Shown here: in pieces, positions 4,995 to 55,139 of the stretch
How the letters are laid out: the number at the start of each line of letters is the position of its first letter
Numbering within the stretch: position 1 is the stretch's first letter
NCBI GenBank assembly: GCA_012976225.1
Contig: JAAVVG010000027.1
Location: forward strand, 186,001-250,000
DNA: 64,000 nt
Direction: 5' to 3'
Source of the DNA: Golubevia sp. BC0850
Taxonomy: Eukaryota > Basidiomycota > Exobasidiomycetes > Golubeviales > Golubeviaceae
Notes under the pieces: generated by a model
The model's input: the letters and a program-made list of their open reading frames with translations, nothing else
Database searches by the model: none
What the model was told of the DNA's origin: nothing
Made by a program: the position numbers and the translations under genes

Positions 4995-6236
4995 CCCATA
5001 CTCAAAAAGATTGGCTTTGGTTAGTGTTACTTTTATCTCTCAGGATAATTCCTCAACGCTCTTCTATACGTCCGTACGCCTTCAAAATTTGAGCAATTTG
5101 CTTAGATGTGGTCGCTCTCAACTTCTACTCCAGTCTTGAGGGACCTCAAATCTCAAGCTTCCCGTTTCAAACCTTCTTTCAACAACCCGAATCTCAATTT
5201 CTTTCCTTTAAACTCTTCTTCACTTCAACAACTTCTTCATCAACTTCTTCTCTTTACGCTTTCCCTCGTTTCGGAACCCCCTTTTCCCAGTTCAAGTTTC
5301 ATTTCAGTCTTCCATAAAACGAATAATTTCAAGCGAGCAGTCCTGTACTACATCCTCATAATCATTTACTAGATTCTCTAATTCGTTCAGTCTCCTTCCA
5401 ATCCTAAATGTCCATGTTGTGGTGTCAACCAATCCAACGCGCAGGTTTCAACCCTTTAAATCGTCACTGTAGACTCGCAACTTTCTCTTTCACTTCCAAT
5501 CTCTCTTCGAAAGCTTCCAATTTTACAACTAGATGAAGTAGAGTCAGTCAAGTTTTCAAATCAACAGAGCAAGCAGATTCTAAACTCAACGCTCGCACAA
5601 ATTCGTAGGATTTATCTTTAGTCGACGTCATATCCACCATTGTTTCTCAATGATCTCATCTATCGAAACTTGCTTCTATACACCATTCTAGCTGCAGCAA
5701 GTTTTTAACCCCTTCATTTCGTGAGAATCCTTCCATTCTTCCACCCCTCTTCATGATTCATTTGAACTCTGTCTCTAGTATCTCCTTCTTCTTCTCTCAA
5801 ATTCTATCACTATTTTTACCGAATTTCACTCCCTTCTGTTTGATTGTTCGTGAGTTCTGATCTTTCCGTCGTGAGCTTCGTGGAAGTGCTACTTTGATCC
5901 CAACAACGTCAGCCATGTTCTTCTGGAAATTCTTCTGGAATAGAGTTCGTTGTGACCGATTTCTGGACGAGTTTAATTGTTTCTTTCGATTGGATGTTGG
6001 ATGTAAAGTTTTTTGATTTCTCGAATAAGCGGAAGATACTTTGAGGTAATTGAAAGACTCGCTGCATCGATTGAATGAAGGTCAAAGAACCTCGCTGCGA
6101 GCCGCGAGCGTATTACATTTTCCCCCAGGTCCATACCTTCGTTTCGGTAAGTTTTGAGAATTTGAATAAGCTTCAACTGAAAGGAAGAATGAAGTTAGTG
6201 AGCGAGAATCCCTATTCAAGGTTGTGAGCCGCTAAG
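4995..6236. other. Intergenic region, no gene supported
   Basis: A 1.24-kb T/C-rich stretch between two F-box-like loci. Frames at 5106-5372 and 5973-6176 are short, overlapping and of low coding quality. Nothing recognisable is seen; it may contain the unfound 5' exon of the 6.2-kb copy. Confidence 0.4.
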
Positions 6237-7733
6237 TTGGGCTTCAAGAAGAGGATTCGAGAGGGCTCGAGTTGTTCCCTTCTTCCTTTCCGAACTATCA
6301 CCACTTTTCCTCAAATCTCTACCTCAAAAGATGGAATCAGCAGAAAACAAGTCAAAGTCAGCATCAACTCTCTTCCAGAAGATGCCATCCATCCAATCGT
6401 CGAACGCATTCGAGCTTGGACAGATTTGAAGAGAAAGGCTACCTCCAAAGAGCAGAGGTTGCAAGCGAGAAAGTAAGTACTCGTTGTCAAAGTGTAGAAT
6501 GGAACGACCAGAGAGTCTTCACTCATCAACTCATCGCGTACTCATCTATCAGGTCGTCTTCTTCTCTCCCGTTCCACTCTCATCTTCCAGGTTCAGAGAC
6601 TCGGCTCTCAGAGGAATCGCCCTAGCAAGCAGTGCATCCTACAATCTCTGGTACGGATTTCTTCTTCAAACCGTCACCTTCGAGCCAAAGAACGTAAAAG
6701 ATCTTCTCTTTTTACTAGGCAGAGATCCAACCCTTGGTCATCAAGCGCGTTCGCTCATTCAAGCTGGAACCGAAGGCGAAGAGGAGCTGGACGGAACCTC
6801 ATTCTCTCGACTACTAAGCAAGACTCCGATTTAGAATCTTTGGTTCTCCCAGATGAATTGGCTTATCTCTCCAAAAACATAGTCTCTCTACAACTGTTTC
6901 AATCTCTCAAGAGAATCTTCCTACCAGTTCCTCCAGAGTCCTATCCTCTACTTTCGGTTGAAGATGTCCTTTCGCTTCTTGCCTCCTCTCCTCATCTTTG
7001 TCAGATCATCGTGGGACTCTCCTTTGGTGTTGAGGACGTCTGTTTTATGCAAGACCACGGAGGTAGGCTCGAAGGGGTGTCCAAGGTCAAGCAGCTCGCC
7101 GTTCATCCGATCTTCTGGTGGAAAGACGACGAGGAGGGAACTTGGTGGGGAGCACCAGAAGACAGCCAGAAGAGTCGGATAGGAGGAAGCAAGAAAACAT
7201 AGGGGGTTCATCGGTTCCTTCTATTCACGCGTAAGCTCATATCGATCGAGCTGCTGTTCTCAATAACTGATCCATATCGACATGGAGACATCACAGTTAC
7301 AGATGTCCGTATGCTTTCGGGCCTCAAAGAATCCTTCAGTACTTTAAAGCATCTCAGAACAATCTGTGTCTCGAGTGATTACAATCCAGTGACAGTCCTC
7401 GTTCCCAGCTATTCTTTACTCAAGTCTCTAAAGATCTGATCAGTCGACGTCCCAAATTGATTGGACAGAATCTCATCTCGGGAGATGGGAAGAAGCAAGA
7501 AGCAAGCTCGAGAGCTTCGAAGTTTTCACTAGCGGTAGAATGAGGCTGACTCTTTTGGAACCTGGAACAATAGGTGAGTAGATTAGCAGCGGATAGTGGG
7601 AGTAAATGGTATTCATTCTTGCTTTCGTCATGTTCTAAGCTTGCTTGCTTCTTCTCTTCTCCCAGTCGGCGATCCTTCCAAAAGAGAAGACTGTCCTTCA
7701 AACTCGGAGTTACTCGTGCCTTTCCCTCTTTAG
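6237..7733 (+). pseudogene. F-box-like family copy 1, frame-disrupted
   Basis: Exon 1 ends at 6472 (AA|GTAAGT) and encodes the F-box-like core INSLPEDAIHPIVERIRAW. A 119-bp intron follows, exon 2 begins at 6592 (KFRDSALRGIALASSASYNL), and a last exon is 7666-7733 (donor 7574), ending in LVPFPL. The open frame of exon 1 begins at a TTG, not an ATG. Exon 2 loses frame at about 6829, where one base is missing relative to the copy at 20.9 kb, and the frame changes again near 7195. All parts align collinearly with the 20.3-22.0 kb copy, including both splice sites. The 309 bp at 6521-6829 are identical to 20567-20875. Host gene, not mobile. Likely a decaying paralog, or a functional gene with assembly indels. 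Confidence 0.65.
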
Positions 7734-13416: not shown

Positions 13417-14876
13417 TTACTCAGATGGGATCTATGAAACCAAGTAAGAATAAATTAAGAGGGAAGCGTCAGTTCCTTCAAGATCTAGACTTTCGAAACC
13501 TCTCCAGACTCCTTTACATTCTAACAAGTATGAAAGCGTAAGAACTCACCTCAACTTCACCACTGTCAATTCCCTCAATGATCTCATGAGGATCCTGTCC
13601 CTCAACGGTGCAACCAACAGATTGAGCAGTTCCCAAGATTTCCTTGACGGTTCCAGAGAGTTCCTTAGCTAGAGACTTGAATCTCATGGTTCTGGCAATG
13701 TCAACGATTTGATCTAGAGGAATGTTACCTGAGTGCTTGATGTTCTTCTCCTTCTTACGATCTCTGGGTGGTTCTGTAGGACGATTTGAGGATATTAGAA
13801 AATCAGAGGTTAGCTGATTGGAGATGGGGAGGCTGGATCTCTTGCTTCCTTTATGGATTATATTTGAAGTGATTCAAGATGAATCTATGATGACCTTTGA
13901 ATTTCTGACAGATTCATTCCCTCGCATTGATGGTGCATGAGAGATGGTTTCCTAGCCTTCCTTCCGGCTTCTAGACTCCCAACCTCTCGATCCCACCTTC
14001 CAGCACCTCTCCCTGATCATCTCCCACTGATTCGACTCTCATCTTCCATAGCGCTCGTCTCCCGTCACTCACCCTTAAGAGCCCTGATGACGAGGGAGGA
14101 AGCAGATGGGACGACCGAGACGGCAGCTTGACGGTTCTGGACGGTCAATTGGACAGTGACACGTAGACCCTTCCATTCACCAGTTGCCTTGGCGATATCT
14201 TCTCCGACCTTCTTTGGGGACTGAGGAAACAAGAGGGATGAGATCGAGATTAGAGGGACTCTTGACTGCTGGGTCTTTCTCAGATCGACTGCTGTCTTCC
14301 CACTTCCGCCTGCCTGTAGTTCATTGTTGGCTGGTAGTCTTTCGAAAAGGAAGGTTGGAAAGATTTGGAGGCAGCTGGATACTAACTAGACCGAGAGGAC
14401 CAATCTTTGGAGCGAGAGCAGAGGAAGCTCCTACTTCACCTCCAGTGGCACGGAGGTAGATGATCTTGATCTCATTTGGGTCGATTTTTGGGGCCCTAAG
14501 AAAATGGGAAAGAGATTTAAAAGGAGGAAAGGGAATGAGTGCCGAGGTGAGGGAAAGAGGATGGGTAGTTGGAATCTGACTGGAGAAAGGTTCGAGGTCT
14601 AGCTTCTGACAGCTAATTGCGACTCATTCAAAGCCCAATTGATCTTGAAGCAATGCTGAAATGATATGAGTTCACTTCAAGAGCCATTGGGGTGGGGTAA
14701 CGTTGAATTTGAATGTTTGAAGTCTGTTGAAGATTTCTTCACTTTCTTCCTAACCCTACCCTGACCCTACCCTACCCTACCTCGCATCTTCCATCTGGTT
14801 TCCTGGCTTCCTTCTTGAACGTATGCTTGTAGAAGATTGCTATGTCGAATTTTGACTGAACTGAGTAGACTCACAT
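13417..14876 (-). CDS. RPL12: 60S ribosomal protein uL11 (RPL12)
   Basis: Exons 14876-14875 (only the A and T of the start codon), 14495-14387, 14220-14073, 13773-13550 and 13431-13417 encode 165 residues, the usual length. The sequence starts [20 protein letters not shown] and ends [27 protein letters not shown] and [12 protein letters not shown] are diagnostic of eukaryotic uL11. The protein sits at the P-stalk base of the large subunit. The A-T|G split is required because exon 2 opens with G-GCC-CCA in phase and no other upstream start fits; the donor is AAAAAT|GTGAGT. Intron 1 is 379 bp and holds a telomere-like repeat. The last exon codes for four residues. The gene diverges from RACK1, with start codons 154 bp apart. 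Confidence 0.93.
14751..14782 (-). repeat. Interstitial telomere-like tract inside RPL12 intron 1
   Basis: On the minus strand the tract reads as runs of TAGGG separated by one or two bases, with one TTAGGG unit at the 3' end. Interruptions (GGGTCAGGG) mean it is not a perfect telomeric array. Similar TAGGGTT boxes bind Tbf1-type factors at ribosomal-protein and snoRNA genes in some fungi (established knowledge). Function here is inference from location. Confidence 0.6.
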
Positions 14877-15030
14877 TTTTGCAGTTTGAGGATGGGATGC
14901 GGGTCGAGAAGAAGGAAGTTACCACTGACAACCTGCTGGGCTTGCGAAATTGGCGCGCCGTAGCAAATCTCCTCCAAGCAAAGAAGAAAATTCAACCTTG
15001 TCTGGTTTCTAATCCACCATCCATCACACA
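14877..15030. promoter_or_regulatory. Bidirectional RPL12/RACK1 promoter and 5' UTR region
   Basis: Only 154 bp lie between the two split start codons, so both 5' UTRs and the core promoters must share or overlap this space, or extend into the opposite gene's first intron. It contains a GCGCGCC palindrome-like word near 14951. No TATA box is evident. Confidence 0.6.
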
Positions 15031-16992
15031 ATGTGAGTTGTTGTTGATTCCATTTCAGCAAATTTGAATCTTCAAATTATTCAACATACATCCAGGATGA
15101 ATCACACTTGAAGGGCACTCAAGACTGACTCGATTTTCCATTTCTTCCTCCTTCTCACCTTTGCCTGTTAGGTCTGAATCACTTCAATACAAAGGATCCC
15201 TAGCTGGACACAAAGGATGGGTCACCGCTATTGCTACTACTAGCGAGAACCCAGATATGCTTCTCACCGCCTCTCGTGGTAAGTGTTGAGAACTGGTGCT
15301 AGCAGCCATATCTCCTCCTGTTGTCCCTCCAACTAATTCCTCCTTCCTCTCCCGCTATTCCCCCAACAGACAAGACCATCATCGTCTGGTCTCTATCCCG
15401 TGATGATTCCAACTACGGTTACCCGAAGAGGATTCTACATGGACACAACCATTTCGTTTCCGACATTGTCATCTCCTCCGATGGTCAATTCGCTCTCTCT
15501 TCTTCTTGGGACAAGACTTTACGTCTTTGGGATTTGGCTTCAGGTACCACTACCAGAAGATTCGTAGGACATACCGCTGATGTTCTTTCAGTCTCTTTCT
15601 CTGCTGATAACCGTCAAATCGTCTCTGGTTCAAGAGACAGAACCATCAAGCTTTGGAACACTTTGGGAGAATGCAAATTCGACATTAAGGAAGATGGTCA
15701 CTCTGAATGGGTCTCTTGTGTTAGATTCAGTCCAAACCCTTCTAATCCTTTGATTATTTCTGCTGGTTGGGATAAGGTTGTTAAGGTGAGTTGGATTGAG
15801 GTAGACCTGGAGGTAGAGGTAGAGCTAGCTGTGTGGGAAGAAGGACTGAGAGGACAGGGCGAGAAGTGAAGGGCAAGGCAAAAGGGCAGGGAAGAGCTGG
15901 AAGAAAGTATGGAATGTAATTGAAACATCTGGTCGAAAAGCGGTGGTAGGTCAAAGAGGAAGGTTCTCTGTCAAGAGACGATGAGAGACAGCCTCTACAG
16001 AAGATGGGGAAACAAGGTTCGCGCGATGACGAGTAACGTTAATATTTGCTACTCAGGAGAGCCAATCTAGCTCGATGATAACAATTTATAACCACCAAGA
16101 TCACTGAGCGCTCGAACTTTGGCGGAATATGGAAGGTGACGAATAGAAAGGAATGGAGAAGGAAAGAGTTAGAAGAAAGGTTAATCCTAGGATTAGGGCC
16201 TCTTTCTTATCCCCAACCAAAATGGCGTCAAAGCGGTTCTGAATCCAGAATCTCAGTCAATTCCCTCGAAATCTCTCTGACTGGATTCTAACTCTCCCCT
16301 TGCCCCTCTCCCATCTCTCTAGGTCTGGGAACTAAACAAGTGTAAACTAAAGACCAACCACTACGGACACACTGGATACATCAACACAGTTACTGTTTCT
16401 CCAGATGGATCTCTATGTGCCTCTGGAGGTAAAGACGGTATCACCATGCTTTGGGAATTGACCGATGGAAAGAACCTCTACTCTTTGGAAGCTGGTGACA
16501 CCGTTAATGCTCTTGCTTTCTCTCCTTCAAGATATTGGTTGTGCGCTGCTACTAGTTCTTGTATCAAGAGTGAGTTCTTCGAAAGAGAGTTGGGAGATAA
16601 GGGGGGAGGAAAGGGGTTGGGAAGTTGGCAGATGGATTCAGAGGGGCTTTGGAGATCTTGTGCCTCAGTGTCATCTCGAATTCTGGTTTCTTACTATGGG
16701 AGGGAGGAATTGTTGAAACCAAGCTTGTGAAAGGAGAAATCGCGCATTCTCATCTTGTCTCACCTTCAACTGACTCTCATCTCCTCACCCTTTCTTCTCT
16801 CTCTTCTCCTAACTACTTCCAGTCTTCGACCTTGAATCCAAGTCCATTGTCGATGAGCTCAAGCCAGAATTCACCGGAGTTGGAAAGAACTCTGCTGACC
16901 CAGAATGTCTATCTCTAGCTTGGTCAGCCGATGGATCCACTCTCTTCGGAGGTTACTCTGACAACATCGTCAGAGTCTACTCTGTCTTATAA
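15031..16992 (+). CDS. RACK1/Cpc2, seven-WD40 ribosome-associated scaffold
   Basis: Exons 15031-15032 (AT of the start codon), 15172-15278, 15370-15785, 16323-16569 and 16823-16992 encode 313 residues, the standard length. The start reads [22 protein letters not shown] repeats include [36 protein letters not shown] and [12 protein letters not shown]. The end is [18 protein letters not shown]1 binds the 40S head and links translation to kinase signalling. The start codon is split by a 139-bp intron (CACAAT|GTGAGT; acceptor TTAG at 15171). The third intron (15786-16322, 537 bp) is unusually long and contains the U24 snoRNA. All phases close and the frame is intact. Confidence 0.96.
16017..16117 (+). 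ncRNA. snR24: Box C/D snoRNA U24 (snR24/SNORD24), intronic in RACK1
   Basis: The region has a terminal stem (GTTCG at 16017-16021 pairing with CGAAC at 16113-16117, extended by GCGC pairs), box C CGATGA (16024-16029), guide 1 AATATTTGCTA (16041-16051), D' CTCA (16052-16055), C' CGATGA (16073-16078), guide 2 ACCACCAAGATCA (16091-16103) and box D CTGA (16104-16107). Both guides match the U24 guides I recall from yeast and human. In yeast U24 directs 2'-O-methylation at neighbouring 25S rRNA sites and also lies in the intron of the RACK1 homolog ASC1. It is probably released by intron debranching and exonuclease trimming. Box C starts with C and D' is CTCA rather than CTGA, mild departures. Confidence 0.92.
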
Positions 16993-17499
16993 ATCTGATC
17001 CTCAGACTGTTGTTTTCACCTCTTTATTTCAGTTCGATCACAGTTCATTAAGTCACTATCCTCCCGTTGTACTTCTTTACTCTTTCCTTCAAAATTCAAA
17101 AGACTAGTCGTCAATTCATTCTGCCAAATGATCACCTGGTCTTGTGCGTGTTCAGTATCCTTTTTGGTCTATGTTGAGGGTGCTCAAATGCAGTTCTATC
17201 ACTCTGTCGACCTTTCGAAGAATAAGACGGAGAATGTAGATGTCGATAGAAGCTTCTCCAGCTCTCATTACGCCCCTCAATTCACTTTCAAAGCCACACC
17301 AATCTACTCGAAAATGATTGAATGAAGTTAACAAAACAACAGGATAGACCATAAAGAAAAGAAAAACCTCGAGAGGTGGAAAGAGAGGATGGCAAAGAAA
17401 AACAGAGCGATAGGTTCAAAGTAAGTATAGGCAGAGAAAAGACGGGGGTAAGAGTACAACAGAATCAGAGAGAGAAGGGAAAGTTGAGAGGATTTTGAA
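16993..17499. other. Intergenic region, convergent 3' ends
   Basis: 507 bp between the RACK1 and PNGase A stop codons. Opposing short frames at 17128-17352 are mutual shadows. A purine-rich block at 17340-17480 lies just beyond the PNGase A stop. No gene supported. Confidence 0.5.
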
Positions 17500-19800: not shown

Positions 19801-20304
19801 GGCCAATGAGTGGGTGGAATCGAAGATAAAAGAGTGTCGTGGGGGTCGCAGCGATTCTTCAAGATAATGAGTGGAAACCAAATGAAAGGGTTGAAAATGA
19901 GCAGAAGATGAAGAGGGAAGGGAAGGAAGAAGAAAAAGAAAAGAGAATATCACCCCAACAACCTCGGCTGGAATTCCAGGGCCCCTATAATCGCAATTCG
20001 AAAGAAGTTCCTTCGATAAGAACATCGTTGACTCTTTTCGCGTTTCTGTTTTTGGAAAGAGATTCATTGCTGTCGACCATTTTCAGAGTCCGAGTTTATG
20101 GCTCTGGAAATGTGGCCAATGGGAATCCACCACTAACAAAACAAGTACTAATACTAGTATTGAACGATCCTCAAGAGGGATTTTTTGCCTGTTCTCCAGG
20201 GATCTCAAGCTCCCAAGGCCGCGAAGCTTGAGAAGTCTTCGGAGTTTCAGAGAGCAAGATCTTTGTTCAGAGAAACCTCGCTCGAACCGCTAGACTTTCT
20301 TCAA
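19801..20304. other. Intergenic region upstream of PNGase A and F-box-like copy 2
   Basis: About 500 bp. The part next to PNGase A is purine-rich on the plus strand and would be its promoter. The right part (20180-20304) is open in the frame of the F-box-like exon back to a TGA near 20229 but has no ATG in that frame. Confidence 0.4.
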
Positions 20305-22022
20305 GAGCAGATTCGAGTTGTTCCCTTCTTCCATCCCAAACTATCACCACTTTTTCTCAAATCTCTACCTCAAAAGATGGAATCAGCAGACAACAAGTCA
20401 AAGTCAGCATCAACTCTCTTCCAGAAGATGCCATCCATCCAATCGTCGAACGCATTCGAGCTTGGACAGATTTGAAGGCAAAGGCTATCTCCAAAGAGCA
20501 GAGGGTGCAAGCGAGAAAGTAAGTACTCGTTGTCAAAGTGTAGAATGGAACGATCAGAGAGTTTTTACTCATCAACTCATCGCGTACTCATCTATCAGGT
20601 CGTCTTCTTCTCTCCCGTTCCACTCTCATCTTCCAGGTTCAGAGACTCGGCTCTCAGAGGAATCGCCCTAGCAAGCAGTGCATCCTACAATCTCTGGTAC
20701 GGATTTCTTCTTCAAACCGTCACCTTCGAGCCAAAGAACGTAAAAGATCTTCTCTTTTTACTAGGCAGAGATCCAACCCTTGGTCATCAAGCGCGTTCGC
20801 TCATTCAAGCTGGAACCGAAGGCGAAGAGGAGCTGGACGGAACCTCATTCTCTCGACTACTAAGCAAGACTCCGAATCTAGAAATCCTGGTCCTTAGAGA
20901 TATACTGGTTTCATTTTCGTTTGTAGAAATAATCAGCGAGAAAACGGTTCCGCTTCAATTCCTGAGTCAATCTCTCAAGAGGATCTTCCTTCCAGCCTCT
21001 CCGGAAGGAGATCCCTTCCCTCTAATCTCGCTTAAGAACATCGTCTGGCTTCTAGTCTTCTGCTCTGGGCTTTATCAAGCAGCTTCAAGTTTTTCAATCG
21101 ACGTTCAGGATATCAAGTTCCTTCAAAACCACGAAGCCACTCTGGAAGGAACCTCGAGGGTCAAACAGCTCTCCATCCAGCCGATCTTCAGGTGGAAAAA
21201 GTACCATCAGCGACTTTGGTGGGGAGGGCCTGGAGAGAATAGGAGCAATTGGAAGGGAGGAAACGGAAAAAACGAGGCGATTCATCGACTCCTCCAAACT
21301 ACGAGACAGCTCATATCTTTTGAGCTGATTTTAACGGTCACCGATCCGATTCGAGATGAAGACGACACACAAGTCCCGGCGTTCGTGCTATTCTCGGTCT
21401 CAACGCCCCCTTCGGATCTTCGAAGCATCTCAGGATAGCCATTACCGCACGTAGCGTGGATCCCTCATCGGTCTTTAGCCCCAGTCTCTCCCTGTTTCAC
21501 TCTCTCAAGATCCTAGCAGGCGATATCGCTACACTCATCCTGGCCTTACGTGACAACGGTCGCTCAGCAATCCCGTCAGCTCTAGAGATCTTACATCTCC
21601 ACTCATATACCTCATCTGATGGTACAGACGACGATCTAGCCTTCCAAGAAGAACGCATGATGTTCATGCTGCTTTCGGACAACATGATACCAACACTGAT
21701 TGAGGTGATCGTGCCATCAAGCCGAATTGCACTAGATCCTCATCCTGGTTGGAATCAAATGCATTTCAAGAGATGGACAGATTTGAGAATCAAGAGCTTC
21801 GAAGGTTTCACTAGCCGTAGAATGAAGTTGACTCTTCTGGAGCCTGGAATGATCGGTGAGTAGATAAGCAGTAACGGACAAGTAGTAGGCAAAGAGTGCG
21901 AATTATTTCACTTGTTCTTTTCTAACTTTCCTCCCTACTTCCCTTTCATTCCAGTCGGTGATCCTTCCAAAGGAGAAGACTGTCCTTCAACATCGGAAGA
22001 GCTGGTGCCTTTTCCTCTGTGA
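20305..22022 (+). pseudogene. F-box-like family copy 2, nearly intact but frame-disrupted
   Basis: Exon 1 (ending at 20518 with GAGAAA... donor GTAAGT) carries INSLPEDAIHPIVERIRAW. Exon 2 begins at 20638 with KFRDSALRGIALASS and stays open through an LRR-like region to 21438. One base is missing relative to copy 1 near 21395 (TCGGTCTC where TCGGGTCTC would keep frame). The continuation to 21855 ends LLEPGMI, and the last exon 21955-22022 ends LVPFPL. No ATG precedes the F-box in its own frame; the ATG at 20378 (MESADNKSKS) is in another frame. Splice sites are intact. Role unknown; the F-box-like N-terminus plus leucine-rich body suggests SCF substrate recognition. Confidence 0.65.
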
Positions 22023-28784: not shown

Positions 28785-29480
28785 AGTTGAGGAAGCTTCA
28801 AGCTAAACCAGAATTGCATGAACGGAATTAGGCGCGCGGCTGTGATGAACCTCAACGCCTCGACGCCGGAGAGATCGTATTGAATTTGATGGATCTGGAA
28901 GATGAAAGATAAATTCAGAATCGAAACTGGAAGGAAGAGTCTCTTGAGAGAGTGACTCCCAAATTGAAGGAGAACCATTTTCTCGTTGATCCTTCAGAGT
29001 TGGAGTCTCGAGATCTGGAGTCTTGCTTAGAACTTAGAAGTCGAGAGAATGAGGTTCCGTCCTCCAGCTCCTCTTCGCCTTCAGTTCCTGCTTGAAGTGC
29101 TGAACGCACTTGATGACCAAGACTTGACTCTCTGTCTAGTGGTGATAGAAGATCTCCTACGTTCTCCGAAATTGATGGCTCGAAGAAGAGATCCGCACCA
29201 GAGATTGTAGGATGCTCTGCTTGCTAGGGCGATTCTCTGAGAGTCGAGTCTCTGAACCTGGGAGAGGGTGGAAAGCGTAGAAGACAAATGAATTAGCAGC
29301 TTGATGGCTAACTTAATCAGCTCGTATATTGAAGAAGAACTTACTTCTTCGCATTGATCCATTCGAATCTGCCCAACTTCTAATGCGATCGATTGGATGG
29401 ATTACATATTCTGGAAGAGTGTTAATGTCGAGTTGGGTCTTTGTAGAAGTTTTCCTTGTGATCGCTTGACTTTCACTCAT
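28785..29480 (-). pseudogene. F-box-like family copy 4, 3'-truncated and decayed
   Basis: Exon 1 (29480-29345) starts at an ATG and reads MSESQAITRKTSTKTQLDIN then TLPEYVIHPIDRIRSW, the F-box-like core. An 87-bp intron follows at the family's conserved position (GTAAGT; acceptor CTCCCAG). Exon 2 from 29257 starts KFRDSTLR, but one G is missing compared with copies 1 and 2 (AGAGAATC instead of AGAGGAATC), so it shifts frame almost at once. Recognisable pieces (QAGTEGEEEL, SFSRLLS, HSLKRLFLPVS) persist in scattered frames to about 28860, after which similarity ends. This is a host-gene relic. It lies head-to-head with copy 3, 247 bp between starts. Exon 1 is useful because it shows where the family's true ATG should be. 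Confidence 0.7.
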
Positions 29481-29727
29481 GATAGGCAGGAAGTTTGAAA
29501 AACTAGTGATGGATCGAAAGAAAGAAGAAAGAGTTGGTCCACTGAGTCCACTCTTTCCACCATCGTTGATCTCTTTTGGTTTCCATCCCAGCACTTTAAC
29601 AATCGCAAATCTAAAGCTGGTCACATCTTCTGGAAGAACACTTCCACTGACAGTAGAAAGAGATTCACTCAATCCAAGTTCCGAGGTCACCCAGCACCTT
29701 CAATCGGAAAAGGCATTATCCAACAAG

Positions 29728-31621
29728 ATGAAACAAACTCCAGCAGTCAAAGTCGTTCCTAGGAATCTTCATACGATCCCAGATGATGTGTCCGCATTAA
29801 GTGTGAAAGAGATTAGGGAGTGGGCAATGATTAGACAGAATGGGAACGGCAATGAGTTGTTGGACTCCAATTCCAGAGCCAGGTGAGTGCCTTCTGATTC
29901 TTCTCCTCTCTTTTCCTCCTTCCTAGCTACGTCTTTAACATTGTTCCTTTTCGCTTCTACTTTCTAAACTAGGTTGAGAGATTCAACGTTGCGAGCTGTC
30001 GCTTTCGCCTGCACTTCCACCTACGAACGCTGGTCCGACTTCGCCCTTCAAAACACGAGGCTGCACCTCGTGCACCTTCCCTCTATCTGTTTCCTTCTGA
30101 AAAGAAGACCAAATAGTGGACAGAACATAAAGCGTCTGACGCTGTCAGGACGGCCATACTCCAGTCGCAAAATGAGGCAAGCCAACGATTCCTTCCCCTC
30201 ATTTAGAGCAGTGGTTGAAGAGAAAGAGATCCAACTCTCGAAAGCTCACGGAAAAACTAGTCAAATATCAGGAATAGAGGTGCTATATACTCCTCTCTTG
30301 AACTTCTTACTAAGCAACTCTGAAACTTGGAATCTCTCGTTCTCGAATTGAGTCCGATCCCACTACCTCTGAGAGAGTGCATCAATGGCAAACAAGTACC
30401 ATTTTCATTCTTGAAAGATTCATTAAAAAGGATTTTTTTGGGAGGAATCTCTCAGGAAAACGCCTTTCAAGCCAGATATATTATCTTTCTACTTCTATAC
30501 TGCAAGTCTCTTCTTCAAGCTGTCGTCTCTTTTGACGTTACAATTCTAGATAATAGGTATTTATCGGAGCATGGACATGTCATCAAAGGTTTATCTTCAG
30601 TCAAACAGCTTTCAATTACACCTAATTTTATCAGCAATCCATCTACAACTATAACTCGGTGGGCTTCAATAGCATGCGGACGGAAGTTTGAAGGGGGTAG
30701 CCAGAAGACAGGAGTACTTATGAAGTTTCTTACAGTCACTAGTGAATTAACTTCTTTCGAATTACAAGTTCAAGACACAGGATCGAGTCCGGGCGTGGAT
30801 CCTTTAGCGTATCCAGATTTACTTGACGGGCTCGACGGATCTCATTCAACGCTCAAACACTTAAGAATCTTATTCTGCATCCCAAATTACGATGAAGCAA
30901 TGTTTCCTGATCTTTCAAGATTCAAGGTTCTTAAGATTCTCGGAATTCAATTTCAGACCTTAGCTTTTTATAAGATGCATCTGATGACTCACTCCTCTAC
31001 CTTCAGCTCTCGAATCTATCCAACTACTCTTTTAGTGCGCAGCGGATACAACTGCCACATCAAATTTTGATGAGGACCAAGACTTGTCTGTAATCATTCA
31101 TTCAAAACGATTCGACCTTCGGAAGTTGAGAGAAGCCCTTGTGCCTCACAGAGCTATCGACCACCAGGGAAGGCTGTTGAAATCTCCCAAGCACTTGCAA
31201 AAATGGGCTGCGGCCAGAAAAATCTTCAAAAAGATAGAGAGCATTGTTCGGGAAGGGTCGAACTTCGAACGTTTGAACCTGGTGAAATCAGTGAGTAGTC
31301 GAGTCAATTCAGATCTTCAGATTTCACATTGCTTCAGCCTCATTCTGGATTTCCCTCTACCTCTTTGCTTCCTCTCTTCGGTTGGAGATCGGTCCAAAGG
31401 AGAGGTCTGTCTTTCAATATTTCCATGGATATGTCCCTTCGGAGAGATGTGTGAGTCTATTTTGAAGGTCGATTTGTCGCAAGAGAGTAATCAGAGCTTT
31501 GACTGACTGAACACTCTATCATGTATTCTTCTTCTTCTTCTCTTTTTCTCAGGAAGTGAAGGTGGATTTTGACAACGCCGGAAAGTTGACATTTCAAGAG
31601 GACCGACTGCTCAGGGAATGA
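29728..31621 (+). pseudogene. F-box-like family copy 3, divergent, two frame breaks
   Basis: Exon 1 (29728-29882) has a clean ATG and reads MKQTPAVKVVPRNLHTIPDD. A 90-bp intron follows; exon 2 starts at 29973 (LRDSTLRAVAFACTSTYERW). Frame is lost near 30340, where one A is missing from an A-run at the same point as the break in copy 1. It resumes as NLESLVLEL and SLKRIFLGG, then shifts again near 31050. The body continues to 31290, and a last exon 31553-31621 follows a canonical GTGAGT intron. Length and exon pattern match copies 1 and 2, but the protein text is much more divergent. Everything else is intact, so this is either a recent pseudogene or a working gene carrying sequence errors. 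Confidence 0.65.
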
Positions 31622-46880: not shown

Positions 46881-49170
46881 CTACCATCTCGTGACGTCTT
46901 CCACCTCTCCGAAGACGCTCTCCTTCACTGGCATGGCCACTCCACCGGTCTTGATACCATTACTTGCATCGACCTTGCCCCAATCCTTCCAATCTTCCCA
47001 TCCAATTCCATCTCCTTCATAGATTCCACCCCCTTTTAAAACTTCTCTCAAGAAGGTTTGAACCATTCCATTGATTTGTTCAAACTCTAGCAAGAACCCA
47101 TCATGACCATCAGGAGAGACTACGTGATTGAGAATCGAACCTGGAATCAAATTGTGAATAAGGATTTGCTCTGGAGGCGCGAATAAACCATCCGATTCGA
47201 TTGAGATGATCAAGACTTTAGGTGGAGGTGGAAGTTTGCTGTGAAATCCTTCGGATGGACTTCCTAAAGAATTGAGAACTCTGGCTAAGGCACTTTCGTC
47301 TTCGTCTAGATCCAATTCCTCTTCTCTTTCTAGTATCTCTCTTCTTGTCTCTCCATGACCATCAGTTCCCCAATGAGCTCTGCCTCTTGCTACATCGTGA
47401 AAATCCATTTTCCTAGTGAGATGAATGTAACAATTTGCGTCGAACCTCTGAACGAATTTGTCCCCTTGATAACGTAAGTAAGATTGAGCGGAAAAGATCT
47501 TGGCTGGAGGTTGCTGAGATTGATGAGAAGTGGAAGAAGTTGAGGATAGAGAAGTGACCGAATTAGAGAGGTCGACCTTCTCCAAAGCAGGACCTAGAGC
47601 ATCGATCATTTCAACCGCTCCAGGAGAGACTGGAGGAGTCGTTCCTGTAGGTCTGATAAGGTTTCCAGTCTCAGCTCCCGTAGCTTCTCCCTCGCCTCTG
47701 TTCTGCTCCACTGCGGTTCCGGAGAAGTGGCTGCCATTACTCGTGTAAATTCCGTTCTTCGAGATTGGTCCTCCTGGAGTGAGCTGAGGTACCGGACTTC
47801 TGTTCCCTTCGTTGTGAGCTTCAGCAGCAGAGGCTCTTCTACCATCATGAGAGTCTCCATTTGTTTGAACTTGATCTTGAGAATGAGATCCATTGACCTG
47901 TTCCTTCTTGACACCTCCTTTCTTCGATTTTCCGGTCCTTCTTCCAAATCGACTTTCGAAGCTGTCTCTACTTCTGTAAGTCAGCAATGCCGCCATTCTA
48001 GCAGCAGCTAATCCACCTCTGGGAGGCTCCTTTGGATCGTAATACCCATGACTGAAAGAAGGATCCGAATAGATTGATTGACGTTGAGCTTCGGCCCAAG
48101 AGATTCCCCAGGCTGAATGTCTTGCGCAGGTGGCTATCGGTACTATCGCTTTGATGTAAGGTTTCTGCTGCTGTTCATTTGAGGAGCTGGAAGAGCTCGA
48201 CTCAGAGGAAGAGGAGGGGAATCTGACTGGGAAGAGTAGTGGCCACTCGAGAACTGCCATCCCTCCCATGGAGCCTCCTACGACCGCAGCAATCTGTTCA
48301 ACCCCTAGATGATCTAAAAGAACTTTCTGGATTCTGTGTCGGTGAAGAGAAGAGAAGGGGAGAGTAGAGAAGGAGTGGCGGGAAGGGTGTCGAGTCAATT
48401 TAGCAGAGAATTCAACTCTCATCTGTAGCTCTTTTGATTCGAGAAGAAGAGGCTCATATGACAGCAAGAAGGACTCGTAGACTCTATGTCGAATGGACCA
48501 CCTTGCAGATGGGTCCTGCTCAAGGTCCTCAATTGGATAGACGGAGATAGCTCAAGGTCCTCAATTGGATAGACGGAGATAAGATAGAAGCAAGAGCTTC
48601 ACTTGGAGTCATCCTTCAGCCTCCCCTTCCTACAAATCAGGAATGCCCTCAGCCGCTAGAGAAGTGAATGACTCACCTGACATCATCTCTGACTATTGTC
48701 TGAGGGAATTCAGGTCCCCACCAACCTTTGCCATCCCAATCTTGATTTGCTTCTCCCAGCATCTCTCCACCCTTCCTTGTACAAGGACCAGCGCTACCGT
48801 AAGGACTTCCGAGTACATTGGCGCATACGATGAAGAACCTTGTAGGATCGAACAATTTTCCATTACCTAGTAGAGGTCCCCACCAATCCTCTACATCGGC
48901 ACTTCCAGTTAGAGCGTGAGAAACCAAGAGAGCATTGTCCTTGGATTTTGGATTGAGTTTCCCCCAAGTCTTGTAAGCTAGAGGAACGTTTGTAAGAACT
49001 TGTCCGGATGATAGAGTGAAGGTTGGTAACAGGAGATAAGATTGACCTGAAGCTAGTAGAGAGGATTGAGGCGAGGTTGGACCAGTTATAGAAATTGAAG
49101 TGGAAGAAGTTGAGTCGATACTACAACTGCTGCTGCTGTGTCCATTGGTTCCACTGAGATGCTTCGTCAT
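46881..49170 (-). CDS. MET2: Homoserine O-acetyltransferase
   Basis: Exons 49170-48677 and 48333-46881 encode 648 residues. Family text includes LPTFTLSSGQVLTNVPLAYKT, NALLVSHALTGSADVEDWWG, ANVLGSPYGSAGPC, the nucleophile elbow VVGGSMGGM (Ser), IPIATCARHSAWGISWAEAQ, RMAALLTYRS, the Asp in ISIESDGLFAPPEQ, and the catalytic His in SPDGHDGFLLE. It acetylates homoserine with acetyl-CoA, the committed step toward methionine in fungi. The protein is longer than most homologs because of a roughly 120-residue low-complexity insertion (about 47960-47560, Ser/Thr/Gly/Asn-rich) between the cap region and the last third. The 343-bp intron contains a perfect 32-bp tandem duplication. Confidence 0.93.
48518..48581 (+). 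repeat. Perfect 32-bp tandem duplication in the MET2 intron
   Basis: Two identical adjacent units (48518-48549 and 48550-48581), each beginning GCTCAAGGTCCTC, lie mid-intron. Perfect identity suggests a recent duplication. They do not overlap the splice sites. Confidence 0.9.
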
Positions 49171-49868
49171 CTTGATGGAAGGAATTTCAAACTATGATCC
49201 CAAATCAATAGAAGTTATGAGTGGTCTGGTGGTTTGGAAGAGGAGAGAAGAACGTTCTAACTGCTATCTCCAACTTGAAATTGGAAAAGCTCGCCAGACC
49301 GGTACACGATGTCATCATTTTCCCTCAATACCATCTGAACGAGGAATGATTGCTGTTTTCCTGAATAATGGTACATGCTACAAATTGAGAGAGATCCGAA
49401 TCGAACCAACCAACCTAAAAAGACGGAAGAGAGAGGCGAGGGAATATAGATGAGGAGAACAGTTTTTTTTTTTTTTTTTAACCGAGAAGAGCACTGAACT
49501 CAAAGAGTGGGCGTGATTTAAATGAAAAGGCGAGATTGGAATTGGGTCTTTTAGATGAGATAGATTTCGAACTTGAAGAAGCTGAAACGAACTGAATGGG
49601 GAGGAAACGAGGGGGCGGAGAGGGAGAGAAGGAAGGGAAGGGTTGAAGAAGCGTTCCGATGAGAGAATGAGGTATGAAATAACAAGGCTAGAGTTGAGGG
49701 AGGCTATGGAATTTATTCCGTTGATGTCGGTGTTTGAGATTGACCGACTTTGAGGAAACCTCCGAAAGCAGAGACGGGGATTTGATCCGATGAGGGTATC
49801 TTCGAGTTGGGGGAAGAGGGATTTGACAAGTTGAAGGGAGAGAAAAAAGCTAGAAGACCGCTTGAACA
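49171..49868. other. Region between MET2 start and receptor stop
   Basis: About 700 bp: the MET2 promoter and the receptor's 3' UTR. A poly(T) run occupies 49463-49479. The minus-strand open frame across 49378-50127 has no conserved text beyond the receptor's last exon and is treated as UTR/shadow. Confidence 0.45.
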
Positions 49869-52800
49869 TCAATGATGAAGTGGTGATGATCCAGAAAAGA
49901 GTCTTGTGATTCGTTCCTTGGACCAGACGTAAATTCTGACATGCCACGTCTCTTTGTAGGCCTCTCCTAGAGCTTTTCTTCTTCTTCTCTTTAGCCGCTG
50001 TCGGAAATCTGCAGGGCTCAAAAGGCAGGGTGAAACAGATGGAGGTCAGAACCCTGGAGACGAACGTTTGCTTTCTTTTTCTTGCTTTACTACTCACGAC
50101 GTTCGATGAATTGGAAAATGATAGCATCTAAAGCTCCTTGAGCGAAGATGAACCATCGAGCTACTGAATGCAAGGCATCGTCCTGGTGGTTCGTCGAAGT
50201 TTTCCTGGAAGCCAGATCATCGATAATTCTGATGATAGACACAGAAAACAGTAGACAGTAGGCGGCTGGATAGAGCAGCATCAGAAGACTCGCTTGTCTG
50301 TTCAAAGTAGAACCCAGACTTTCCACTCCATGAGGATCGTCCGAGCCATAAGAACTCGTTCCGTAAGTTCCAGCTTGATTACTAGCAGTGATTGCACTTC
50401 TCTGAGTTTGAGTTTGAGCTCCCTGAGATTGAGTCTGAAGGTTGCTTCCTCGATGATGTCTCGATTGCGATCTTGTGGGCGGATTTGCACTGAGGGCGAA
50501 AGTCGTAGCGCTACCTCTTCTACTCCCGTCAACGATGACAGGAGGAGAGTACCTTTCGGTGCCGAGCTTGCTTTCGTCGATGTCTACGTCCACTCCACCT
50601 TCTCCAATCTTTGAGCCCCAGACGAAGTCATCTCCCAAACCTCTTTCGAAGTCATGATCCGCTTCCGAGAGATTGGAAGGTTTCAAAGTCAATGAAATGA
50701 CTTCATTCTCTCCCTCGAGTAATTGAGGATCTTCTTTGGATAGCGTAGCTCCGACGCTAGCAGGTAGGCCAGGGTTGGTTGGATTGACCTCTGTCGAACT
50801 CTTCTGAGATTCCACAAGCCTCCTCAAAGAGATTTCAGAAGTAGCGTTGTTGAGATTGGAAGTCTTGCCTGAAGCACTAGGTCTCCTGCTTCCACCAGCG
50901 CTCGCCATGTATCCGTCCTTCGAAGCTGGACGAGAGAGTGTCTTGAAGTGTTTCTTCCTCGGAGATGTGTTTGTCAAGAAGTGATTGAGGTGCTCTTGAG
51001 GAGGACTAGTCATGTTGAAGTCTCTCGTATCGGTTCTTGGGCTCATCGCCAGAGAGGTGTGTCTCCGAGTAGTGGTCATTTGAGAAGGGGAGGAGGGGCT
51101 AGAGGGTGCGACCCCATCTTCTCCGCCTCGTAGTTCCAACTCTTGAGCAGGAAACCTTTTCCCATCTTCGTCCTCTTCGTCTTCGAGACCTAATCGCACT
51201 GGATCGACAGCGTCGAACCAATCTATCGGTCCTCTCCAGGTCCTTCCACTTCCTGTCGTCATCGATCCGTTTCCGCTAGTGTTGAGAATTCCACCTTCGC
51301 TGGCACCTTCTCTTTTCACCTGAGATTCACTGAAGATCCTAGGGTGAGCGGTAGCAGGTCCTCGCGAAGAAGAGAGCCTGGCAGAGGATTTCCTACCTGG
51401 GGAGCCCGGAGCAGAATCGGAGCCTCCTCGTCCTATCCTTTCGATGGGAGAAGCGAATGAGGTGGTAGGTCCAGAGGTAGCTCCTCCACTGACAGTATGA
51501 GGTCTCTTGATCTTGAGCGGAACTGGGAACTTGCCCCGCCTGGAAGAAATCTGCTGAGACCCTGAAGTCACTTCTGAGTTTCCTTCTCCGAAAGAAATGT
51601 AGGTTCCATCAGCTGTGCTCAGCCTCGATGTGGTTCTCTTTGCCTGAACAGAAAGAGAATGAGATCTTCCTGTTCCACTTCCACTTGCGTTGCCACCGCT
51701 TCGGTCGTGAGCCTTGACGAGGTCTGAGCTGGCGGGGGAGTCGCTGGATCGACGATGCTTCGAATCGGGCTCGTGAGGAGAGATCTCATCGTCATGCTTG
51801 AGATTCGGAAATTCGTGCATCTCCATATCCTTCTGCGTACCATCTGAAGCAGAGATCCTTGCGAAAGGCTGAGTGAAGAGGGGCTTCAATCCGCTGTAGG
51901 GCTTCCTGGCAGAGCTTCTCTGACCTGCAGCCAAAGACTCATCCTCGGTTCCAATCCTGATCTTGGTGTCTTGGCTATCCCAATGCTCCTCTGTATCGCT
52001 CACTGTCCGGCTATGGAAGCTATGGCCAGATCTCCACTGCACCAAGCTGGGAGGCATGGTCGAAGATGGGTCGTCCATTTCCATCCCTGGATGAGAAGCC
52101 ATCGTCACAGCTGTGATGGGAGGGTGTAAAGCTTGGTCTTGATCTGAAAGCGGATGAGTTCGAGGTTGGCAGATACAAGAGCAATCGCTCTGCGAATCGT
52201 GACTGGAAGGAGGTTGGTTCGAAAACGTGTTGAGAAGTTTGTACGGTAGAGCTTTGACAGTTGAGAAGGAAGATTTCCGCCTTCCTTTAGCTGCTGCTAC
52301 TGCCGCTGCAGTTCCTGAGTCAACGCAGTTGAAACATCCACAGCCGCAGGCTCTAGCGACGACTGATCTTGAACGACTCTGAGCTCGTCTCTGAACCAAA
52401 GTAGAATCTCCGTCTTCAAGCGGTGGCAGTTCGTCGACCTTTGCCATCGATTGGAGGTTGCCATTCAGATCTTCCTTCTGGTCGTCTAGAGTTCCGCCCT
52501 GTTTGGAGTGAGATCCTTGACTGTACGGGCTGTCGTGAGAGGTCCCACTGCCGCCTCCTCTGCCGCCGTTCCCTGCGGTTGCTGTCTTGCTCGTGACTGC
52601 AGAGAATAGGTTCGTCCGCCGTAAGAAGAAGAACAGATGGGTGTAGAGGATGATGATGACCACCACCACTATTCCTCTTGGTACGAATTGAATCAGCGGC
52701 GAGAAGAGGTTGTTTCCGAAAGGAGTGAAAGAGCAGTATCCTCCAACGTTCGTGAATCCGACGAAGGCGAATGCCACGCCGTTGACGATGAGAGCGAAGA

Positions 52801-54025
52801 TCCAGAACAGAGGCCACAGAAGCGGAAGTCTTCTCTCTGTTGTCAGAGTGAAGGTGGACTGAGATGAGATCGAGAGAAGGAAGCAATGGAAAAGGTCAGA
52901 TGAATCGAACTAATGGAGTTCTTTAGGGAGCCCCAGCCAAAATCTGGAAGAGGTCTAAAAAGAGCTTCTTACTCACTAGAGGATGGACTAATAGCATGTA
53001 AGTGACCAGAGCAATTCTGAAGAGGAGGGAAAGGCAGAAAAGAGAGGTTTCTATTTGAGTTGCTCTTGAGCCTTCTAGGATGTTCCCTGGACTCACCCTA
53101 GATTCCAAAGATGCTGAGTGAAAATAGAAGAAGCCAAACTATATCCCAAGAAGTTGCAGAAATGGACAGAGCTCGAGAGATCACCACCATCGATGAGAAA
53201 TGAGGAGGAGGCAACGATGATCAAGCTGAATCGAGAAGGGAAAGGGCAGTCAATCAGTCAATCAGTCGATTGCTTTTGCACAAAGGAAGCAGCCTCAGTG
53301 AGAATCAGCAGAGAAGGTAACTCAAGTGACGAGACTTGACCAGAGACAAGCCAGGAATGCTTGCGAGTGAAGGTGACCTTCTCTATCTCTTCCCCTCTAC
53401 TCCTGCTATGAATCACATCTCTGTTGAGCTTTGGTGAAGATTCCCACTCTGCTGAAAGTATGTAGTCATCCGCATGCCCATCAAGTCCCACCCATCGGTA
53501 AAGTCCTTCCTCCCTTGCTGCAGACCCTGGACTCTGTTCATGGAAATCATCATAGTGAACTCACCTGGCCACCAAATCACTCGTAGCCAACCCAACAATC
53601 AAAGCATGCCTCAGTTTCCTTCCACGCTTGTTGACGATGAAAGGATAGATGATGGTCAAAGCACCTATGATCGACAAGATGCAGATCGTTAGATCCACAA
53701 TGTTTCCAACCCTTCCAACTGAACCTGCTTGGACTTGCTCGGCAGCTGTATCGTTGCCCTGCCTTTTGAACACATCTGGAATGGTTGATTTTGAGTCTAG
53801 AAGTTGAAGAGGTGTGATTGGGAGATTGGCTGAGATGGCAGGGGATTGATCTTGATTGATGGAGGAAGATGGTATCGAATTCTGCTCAAATCCTCCTCTT
53901 GTTATGGAGCTTGCATGAGCATATGTTGAATTGAAAAGGAGTAGAGAAAGCTTTAAGAGGAAGGGAGTAGTGATAGCAGCAGAAGAAGAGTTCCTCCTTC
54001 TGTGAATGCTGAATCGCACCACCAT
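49869..54025 (-). CDS. Seven-transmembrane (Git3/cAMP-receptor-like) G-protein-coupled receptor with giant third cytoplasmic loop
   Basis: Exons 54025-53565, 53225-53097, 53016-52977, 52858-50098 and 50008-49869 join in phase into about 1,176 residues. Seven hydrophobic helices can be placed: IVDLTICILSIIGALTIIYP; HALIVGLATSDLVASLIIVA; FLGYSLASSIFTQHLW with IALVTYMLLVHPL; LWPLFWIFALIVNGVAF; RGIVVVVIIILYTHLFFF; MLLYPAAYCLLFSVSIIRII; RWFIFAQGALDAIIFQF. An N-terminal extension of about 110 residues precedes TM1, which is exon 1. Between TM5 and TM6 lies a cytoplasmic loop of about 700 residues, Ser/Gly/Arg-rich. The last exon gives a basic juxtamembrane tail (RHFRQRLKRRRRKALGEA). Fungal receptors of this type sense nutrients through G-alpha/cAMP; the ligand is unknown. 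Confidence 0.83.
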
Positions 54026-55139
54026 CTCTCTGCTCTCCTTGGATGGATTTGACTCCTCTTGGAGGAGAGGGTAGGAATTGAACCTCTACTAGACTTGAAG
54101 AAGGTTAAGGGAATAGACTGCAATTATCCGAGAGGGTATGAAGGTGGCGGTAGCTTGGAAATTCAGTTGTTGCAAGTTTGACTCTTCGCTACGTCGCTGA
54201 TGGAAGCTTGAAGGGTATCGGTCCTGATTGAATTGTTGAAGGGAGCGAGAGAATGGAAAGGAGAGGAAGATATAGTTCTGACCCAAAAGCAACGCAGGAT
54301 TAAGTTGAAGGGAAAACAGAAAGAGGAAAGAGTGGAGTGGTAGGAAAACAAGGAGGGTGGGACCTCGAATGAAAGATGGTTGGGAAAAATGAAAGACTGC
54401 GTGGTTGACTTCCAAATTCAAACTCATTCTCTCTTTCTCTACATATTTTTTCCCCTTTCTCTTTCTTGGTTCAGAAACCCAAAACAAAGGATCAGGGATT
54501 TGATGCATTGATGAATGAGGCAATCAGTTAGAAGACATCTTTCTGGACAAAGAGCTCGCCTCGACCAATCTCTCTCGATCCAGCCACCTTTGTTTCTCTA
54601 CCCCTCCTCTCCAAAGCTCCAACGCTTCAAGTCTTCACTCCCCGGGCCCACAGTACATATGTAGGGTGAAGGAAACTCTAACACTTGCTTGCAGACTTCG
54701 ACCGAGTCTATCATTTCTCTCCCCTTCTCCCTTCACGGATAGACCTCGGCCTTTAGTGATCATCCCTTGTTCTCAATTTCAACTCAGCCCGCCCTTATTA
54801 AGATCAACCAGCAGGCGGGGAATTGTTTTCGAACTTTAAATGCTTTCGATACGGTAAATGCATCCGCGGAAGGGAAGGAGAGAAGGATCGTCACAAGGTT
54901 GAGATCTTGAGAGGTAATCCTTCTCGAGGCAAAGTTGGATCAGAGAACGAGATGAACATCCTGATCTCGAGATTTATGTTACCAGACTAGAGAAAGTTAA
55001 GTAGTACATGATGACGAAGCCTCTAGAAAGAAAGAAAAACGAGCAAAAAGGAAGGGACAGGAGATAAAAGGAGCGTGTTGGGATTCGGGACTTCAAGGGA
55101 CCATTCCTTTTTGTTCTTGGTTATGTAGTTCGTATTCGG
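54026..55139. other. Intergenic region, receptor promoter and formin 3' UTR
   Basis: 1.1 kb without supported genes. The minus-strand frame 54089-54523 is chance. A GGTTCAATTCC string near 54075 (minus) resembles a tRNA B box but no acceptor stem pairs. Confidence 0.45.

Follow-up and report, generated by a model that had tools for sequence, protein, structure and literature searches.

Introns at the start codon have been surveyed by Nielsen and Wernersson. That survey, which quotes Yoshihama et al., reports that introns are in excess immediately downstream of the ATG in vertebrates, arthropods, fungi and plants, finds ribosomal proteins over-represented among the genes with such "start codon introns" (4/45 in fungi), and terms introns that disrupt the start codon itself "relatively rare" (PMC1626468). 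Fungal introns lie nearer the initiation codon than null distributions (PMC8476143), and in Yarrowia lipolytica the first coding exon of 47 genes is only the A of the ATG, so that split start codons are already known in fungi; the same report describes how GTGAGT gives an in-frame stop in phase-2 introns (209/1,083 introns; PMC2911113). In Saccharomyces, ten protointrons have a 5′ splice site that contains the AUG start codon, and the authors of that work suggest that start-codon surroundings readily drift to donor sequence (PMC6726248).

Stops that follow an AUG at once are described as AUG-stop, start-stop or minimum uORF elements in mature 5′ UTRs, where they are reported to stall plant ribosomes (PMC11062462) and are believed to make ribosomes pause in human 5′ UTRs (PMC11057154). 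Splicing is itself a described control point for ribosomal-protein genes: RPL12 appears in a list of proteins reported from various organisms to inhibit splicing of the pre-mRNAs that encode them (PMC8623629, citing Mitrovich and Anderson 2000), and three yeast ribosomal-protein genes are reported to be autoregulated by splicing inhibition (PMC13232506). Within the openly licensed literature, we found no paper on AT/G introns in ribosomal-protein genes, and among the papers listed by searches of that literature for split or interrupted start codons and for AUG-stop elements in Cryptococcus none was relevant by its title.

Here we analyze a divergent gene pair in a 64,000-nucleotide stretch of the Golubevia sp. 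BC0850 genome (the window). The initial annotation had proposed that the two genes, RPL12 and RACK1, each have a start codon split AT/G by the first intron, that the resulting AUG-UGA of unspliced RNA is a selected element, and that the identical geometry reflects co-regulation through splicing.

Results

Both start codons of a divergent gene pair are split by the first intron

In a window of intron-rich genes, RPL12 (minus strand) and RACK1 (plus strand) are arranged head to head, their start codons 154 bp apart, and have the following structures.

14875-14876, minus strand: coding exon 1 of RPL12 (uL11), the AT of the ATG, the rest of the exon being 5′ UTR; GCAAAAAT stands directly before the donor GTGAGT, and the assignment is backed by homologue alignment
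14496-14874, minus strand: RPL12 intron 1, 379 nt, donor GTGAGT, acceptor TTCTTAG; AUG-UGA if retained
14387-14495, minus strand: RPL12 exon 2, from translation
14073-14220, minus strand: RPL12 exon 3, from translation
13550-13773, minus strand: RPL12 exon 4, from translation
13417-13431, minus strand: RPL12 exon 5 including the stop codon, from translation
14877-15030, no strand: interval between the start codons, 154 bp, presumably a shared promoter and both 5′ UTRs
15031-15032, plus strand: coding exon 1 of RACK1 (Gib2/Asc1 type), the AT of the ATG
15033-15171, plus strand: RACK1 intron 1, 139 nt, donor GTGAGT, acceptor CTGTTAG; AUG-UGA if retained
15172-15278, plus strand: RACK1 exon 2
15370-15785, plus strand: RACK1 exon 3
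16323-16569, plus strand: RACK1 exon 4
16823-16992, plus strand: RACK1 exon 5, with the TAA stop at 16990-16992

In RPL12, reading of the sequence at 13600-17200 and hand splicing place A14876 and T14875 before the intronic G14874, and exon 2 opens with G14495; in RACK1, hand splicing places A15031 and T15032 before G15033, and exon 2 opens with G15172. The G of exon 2 completes the ATG in both genes, both first introns run from GTGAGT to TTAG, and both start codons stand in a good context, with an A at −1 and −3. The spliced products, 165 aa for RPL12 and 313 aa for RACK1, are complete and each is closed by a stop. They align in register, residue 1 to residue 1, with the uL11 chain 28ln_Bt (1-164) and with Gib2 4d6v (1-312), respectively, the latter being the best solved relative of the RACK1 protein (577 bits) and a Cryptococcus protein. 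These residue-1 alignments show that the split ATG gives the expected N-terminus in both cases, and because the proteins are full length with N-termini in register with those of their homologues, an alternative first exon is unlikely. The split of both start codons is confirmed as a real feature predicted from the genomic sequence, and the initial annotation was right in its anatomy, in the N-termini restored by splicing, and in its reading of the unspliced RNA of both genes as M-stop (AUG-UGA), which cannot yield protein from the split AUG.

The interval between the two start codons has no symmetry, with a self-complementarity score of 16 against a null mean of 18.5. Near its centre, at 14952-14959, lies a palindrome, GGCGCGCC, that occurs as a single copy in the window and is a possible shared promoter site.

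The stop after the AUG follows from the splice donor

When a GTGAGT donor follows AT, the reading is ATG-TGA, and when GTAAGT does so it is ATG-TAA; a stop always results. These are also the commonest donors predicted in the window by the second of two gene models described below (GTGAGT 44/97, GTAAGT next at 12/97). Across the three start priors of this model, donors that would give a stop after AT make up 67/97, 69/99 and 69/101 of the total, compared with 69/120 in a cruder set and with 7 of 8 among hand-placed introns, a sample that includes the RPL12 and RACK1 first introns themselves. Two AT/G introns would thus both read AUG-stop without selection with a probability of about 0.48 (from 67/97) or about 0.33 (from 69/120). 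Since most predicted donors give a stop after AT, finding AUG-stop in both genes adds no further coincidence to the split itself. The AUG-UGA is explained by the splice donor itself, and the claim that it is a selected element is not supported; the effect is already published for phase-2 introns of Yarrowia (PMC2911113).

The two first introns share no element above chance

Local alignment of the first introns of RPL12 and RACK1 gave a score of 20 against a null mean of 18.8, and 103/300 shuffles scored as high. Neither intron folds unusually well, with z-scores of −1.26 for RPL12, where 10/100 shuffles fold as well, and 0.20 for RACK1, and Rfam reports no family within RPL12 intron 1 (14496-14874). 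With the alignment at chance level and the folds ordinary, a shared element of the two first introns was rejected, and the earlier step from identical geometry to co-regulation is not supported. Splicing may still control RPL12 and RACK1 together, but the geometry that they share is the sole positive evidence for it.

G-quadruplex-type motifs occur on the RNA strand of both genes, as a telomere-like TAGGG repeat run in RPL12 intron 1 (14777-14759, minus strand) and in RACK1 intron 4 (16592-16621, plus strand). The window has four such motifs in all, and of the pair outside these two introns one is a plain G run; a first-order Markov null gave a mean of 0.26 and a maximum of 4 in 100 sequences. 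The RPL12 and RACK1 motifs each lie at most about 120 nt from a donor, a proximity observed post hoc.

Split start codons are rare among the predicted genes of the window

For the bare word ATGTRAG, shuffles predict 14.0 occurrences in the window and 9 are present, and its enrichment was rejected as a candidate signal. At the level of whole genes, two rough gene models were written to permit an intron inside the ATG. The first, cruder model placed one split start among 36 genes, in RACK1, and missed that of RPL12; it attached false exons to both genes and gave RPL12 other upstream exons. The second model, in which predicted coding sequences of at least 300 nt were counted, placed split starts in RPL12 and RACK1 only, at 2/25, 2/24 and 2/22 genes under three start priors, the last of which was flat. 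These counts are a rough base rate. The model was trained on 63 introns of the first model selected for a GT(A/G/T)AG donor, a choice that biases the donor counts of the model in favour of the consensus, and it leans to the signals of RPL12 and RACK1 because the very first training set included their 8 introns. It still misjoins genes, reporting 46881-54508 as a single gene under the flat prior, and the 3′ ends that it gives for RPL12 and RACK1 are both wrong.

RPL12 and RACK1 are the only translation genes recognised in the window, and a Pfam search of 20 of its long ORFs found no translation family at the threshold used. With 2 split starts among 22-25 genes, they would fall in just the ribosomal pair with a probability of 0.003-0.004 and in neighbouring genes with one of 0.08-0.09, both figures being post hoc. 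The first of these suggests that the ribosomal link may be real; coming from post hoc figures and a rough model, it is a hint and no proof that the ribosomal gene class matters.

A variant position of a known intron class

In both genes, the first intron falls inside the ATG, splitting the start codon, rather than between codons 1 and 2 as a phase-0 start codon intron does. The host genes resemble the short, conserved and often ribosomal proteins of that class, uL11 having 165 aa and RACK1, a 40S-bound protein, 313 aa. A stop directly follows the AUG, as in AUG-stop elements, in unspliced RNA only, and RPL12 intron 1 lacks an unusually stable or known RNA structure, a feature that autoregulation of this gene does not require in every case. 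We rate the arrangement as a rare variant of the start-codon intron already described: the AT/G split is a real, locally rare gene structure at a variant position of that class.

Discussion

Using gene structures spliced by hand, comparisons with shuffled sequence and published precedents, our work places the split start codons of RPL12 and RACK1 next to several described systems, each of which they resemble in part. Like the start codon introns of PMC1626468, they combine a first intron at the start codon with a gene class in which ribosomal proteins are over-represented, whereas the reported peak is of phase 0, after the ATG, and the introns here are of phase 2, inside it; by that pattern, the AT/G split lies one nucleotide upstream of the known position, in a favoured gene class. 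With Yarrowia they share intron-split start codons and GTGAGT stops in phase-2 introns, but Yarrowia is an ascomycete yeast with an A/TG rather than an AT/G split, and the main text of that report is without the term "ribosomal protein" (PMC2911113). As in Saccharomyces protointrons, start codon and 5′ splice site overlap here, with the difference that splicing removes the AUG there (PMC6726248) and completes it here. The AUG-stop elements of mature 5′ UTRs (PMC11062462, PMC11057154) likewise have a stop at once after the AUG, while the element predicted in RPL12 and RACK1 would exist before splicing only. Finally, splicing autoregulation of ribosomal-protein genes (PMC8623629, PMC13232506) shares with this locus the RPL12 gene and splicing as a candidate control point; RACK1 is absent from the list given in the former source. 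The statement that no system of this kind had been described is not supported: start-codon introns are on record as enriched in ribosomal-protein genes (PMC1626468), and the RPL12 protein of other organisms as an inhibitor of the splicing of its own transcript (PMC8623629). A new control system in RPL12 and RACK1 is not supported.

We consider it highly probable that RPL12 and RACK1 carry two ordinary spliceosomal first introns that lie inside the ATG, and that the AUG-UGA is a by-product of their donor. As phase-2 introns placed one nucleotide upstream of the "start codon intron" position, they leave exon 1 of each gene as practically nothing but 5′ UTR. The donor begins with a G that takes the place of the G of the ATG, so that GTGAGT after AT reads UGA, and protein requires prior splicing, as it does with most introns whose retention makes an early stop. 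Regarding the behaviour of the unspliced RNA, we infer that transcripts with the intron retained would be non-productive and would be cleared either inside the nucleus or through nonsense-mediated decay. The shared geometry, similarly, probably stems from the 5′ intron bias of ribosomal-protein-type genes and not from selection for joint control. Counting against a by-product are the splitting of two neighbours and of no other predicted gene in the window, the post hoc chance of 0.003-0.004, and the description of start-disrupting introns as "relatively rare" (PMC1626468).

Splicing-licensed translation is the proposal that the AT/G split with its AUG-UGA was selected so that the unspliced RNA of the two genes would stall or use up initiating ribosomes, making their output depend on splicing efficiency. 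In its favour, RPL12 and RACK1 form a divergent, ribosome-related pair in which both are split while no other predicted gene in the window is, the A at −1 and −3 is like the A-rich surroundings of start codons in fungal ribosomal-protein genes (PMC7049704), and AUG-stop elements have been linked to stalling reported in plants (PMC11062462) and to pausing proposed for human 5′ UTRs (PMC11057154). However, the stop already follows from the donor, and the first introns have neither common sequence above chance nor an unusual fold. Furthermore, incompletely spliced mRNA in Cryptococcus is reported to be kept and degraded in the nucleus, and not by cytoplasmic nonsense-mediated decay, and poorly spliced introns are reported to lower expression in general (PMC5851062). 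Should the same be true of this fungus, ribosomes would rarely encounter the unspliced AUG-UGA, and a special geometry would be unnecessary. We therefore regard selection for licensed translation as very improbable. In its most developed form, the AT/G split would be maintained by selection in ribosome-related genes of this lineage as a fail-safe, in which unspliced RNA that escapes the nucleus would offer AUG-UGA alone and make no truncated peptide, and the start-stop would lower or report ribosome supply, coupling a large-subunit protein and RACK1 to splicing efficiency; this, too, we think has very little chance of being correct.

Control confined to RPL12, in which excess protein would repress splicing of its own intron 1 and the RACK1 intron would be unrelated, draws on the precedents for self-suppression of RPL12 splicing (PMC8623629) and for the three autoregulated yeast genes (PMC13232506), as well as on the length of intron 1 (379 nt) and its G-quadruplex-type motif on the RNA strand. 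By analogy with the listed self-suppressors, splicing control of RPL12 is plausible with no role for the start-stop (PMC8623629), but the ordinary fold of intron 1 (z −1.26) and the lack of an Rfam family inside it speak against such autoregulation, which we judge unlikely. It is hardly credible, in turn, that the gene models are wrong and that the true transcripts use another first exon with an intact ATG. The first gene model did give RPL12 different upstream exons, yet both spliced proteins align to their homologues from residue 1, the GTGAGT donors are the commonest of the window, and with each of its three priors the second model settled on the split start.

If the two introns are indeed ordinary by-products of position and donor, they are a reminder for annotation that the start codons of intron-rich fungi can be split, and that ORF finders requiring an intact ATG misplace the starts of such genes. 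Should the AT/G split prove conserved across the ribosomal-protein genes of relatives, it would offer a clean test of splicing as a translation gate.

Searches for relatives of RPL12 and of RACK1 in viral contigs gave no match, and a search of genome contigs for RACK1 relatives gave one bacterial locus at 30% identity and no fungal locus. Within RACK1 intron 3, at 16021-16111 (plus strand), Rfam places a C/D-box snoRNA belonging to SNORD24 (U24), with 42.2 bits against a gathering threshold of 41. The snR24 of budding yeast is the U24 homologue. ASC1, the RACK1 gene of that yeast, has snR24 in its intron (PMC4848094), so that the RACK1 host and its U24 guest appear to have been kept together across distant fungi. 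Elsewhere in the window, ORF translations at 6236-7199 and 20294-21435 (plus strand), 14 kb apart, are nearly identical by eye, with a similar translation perhaps also at 28915-31067; they belong either to a dispersed paralogous gene family or to a repeated element.
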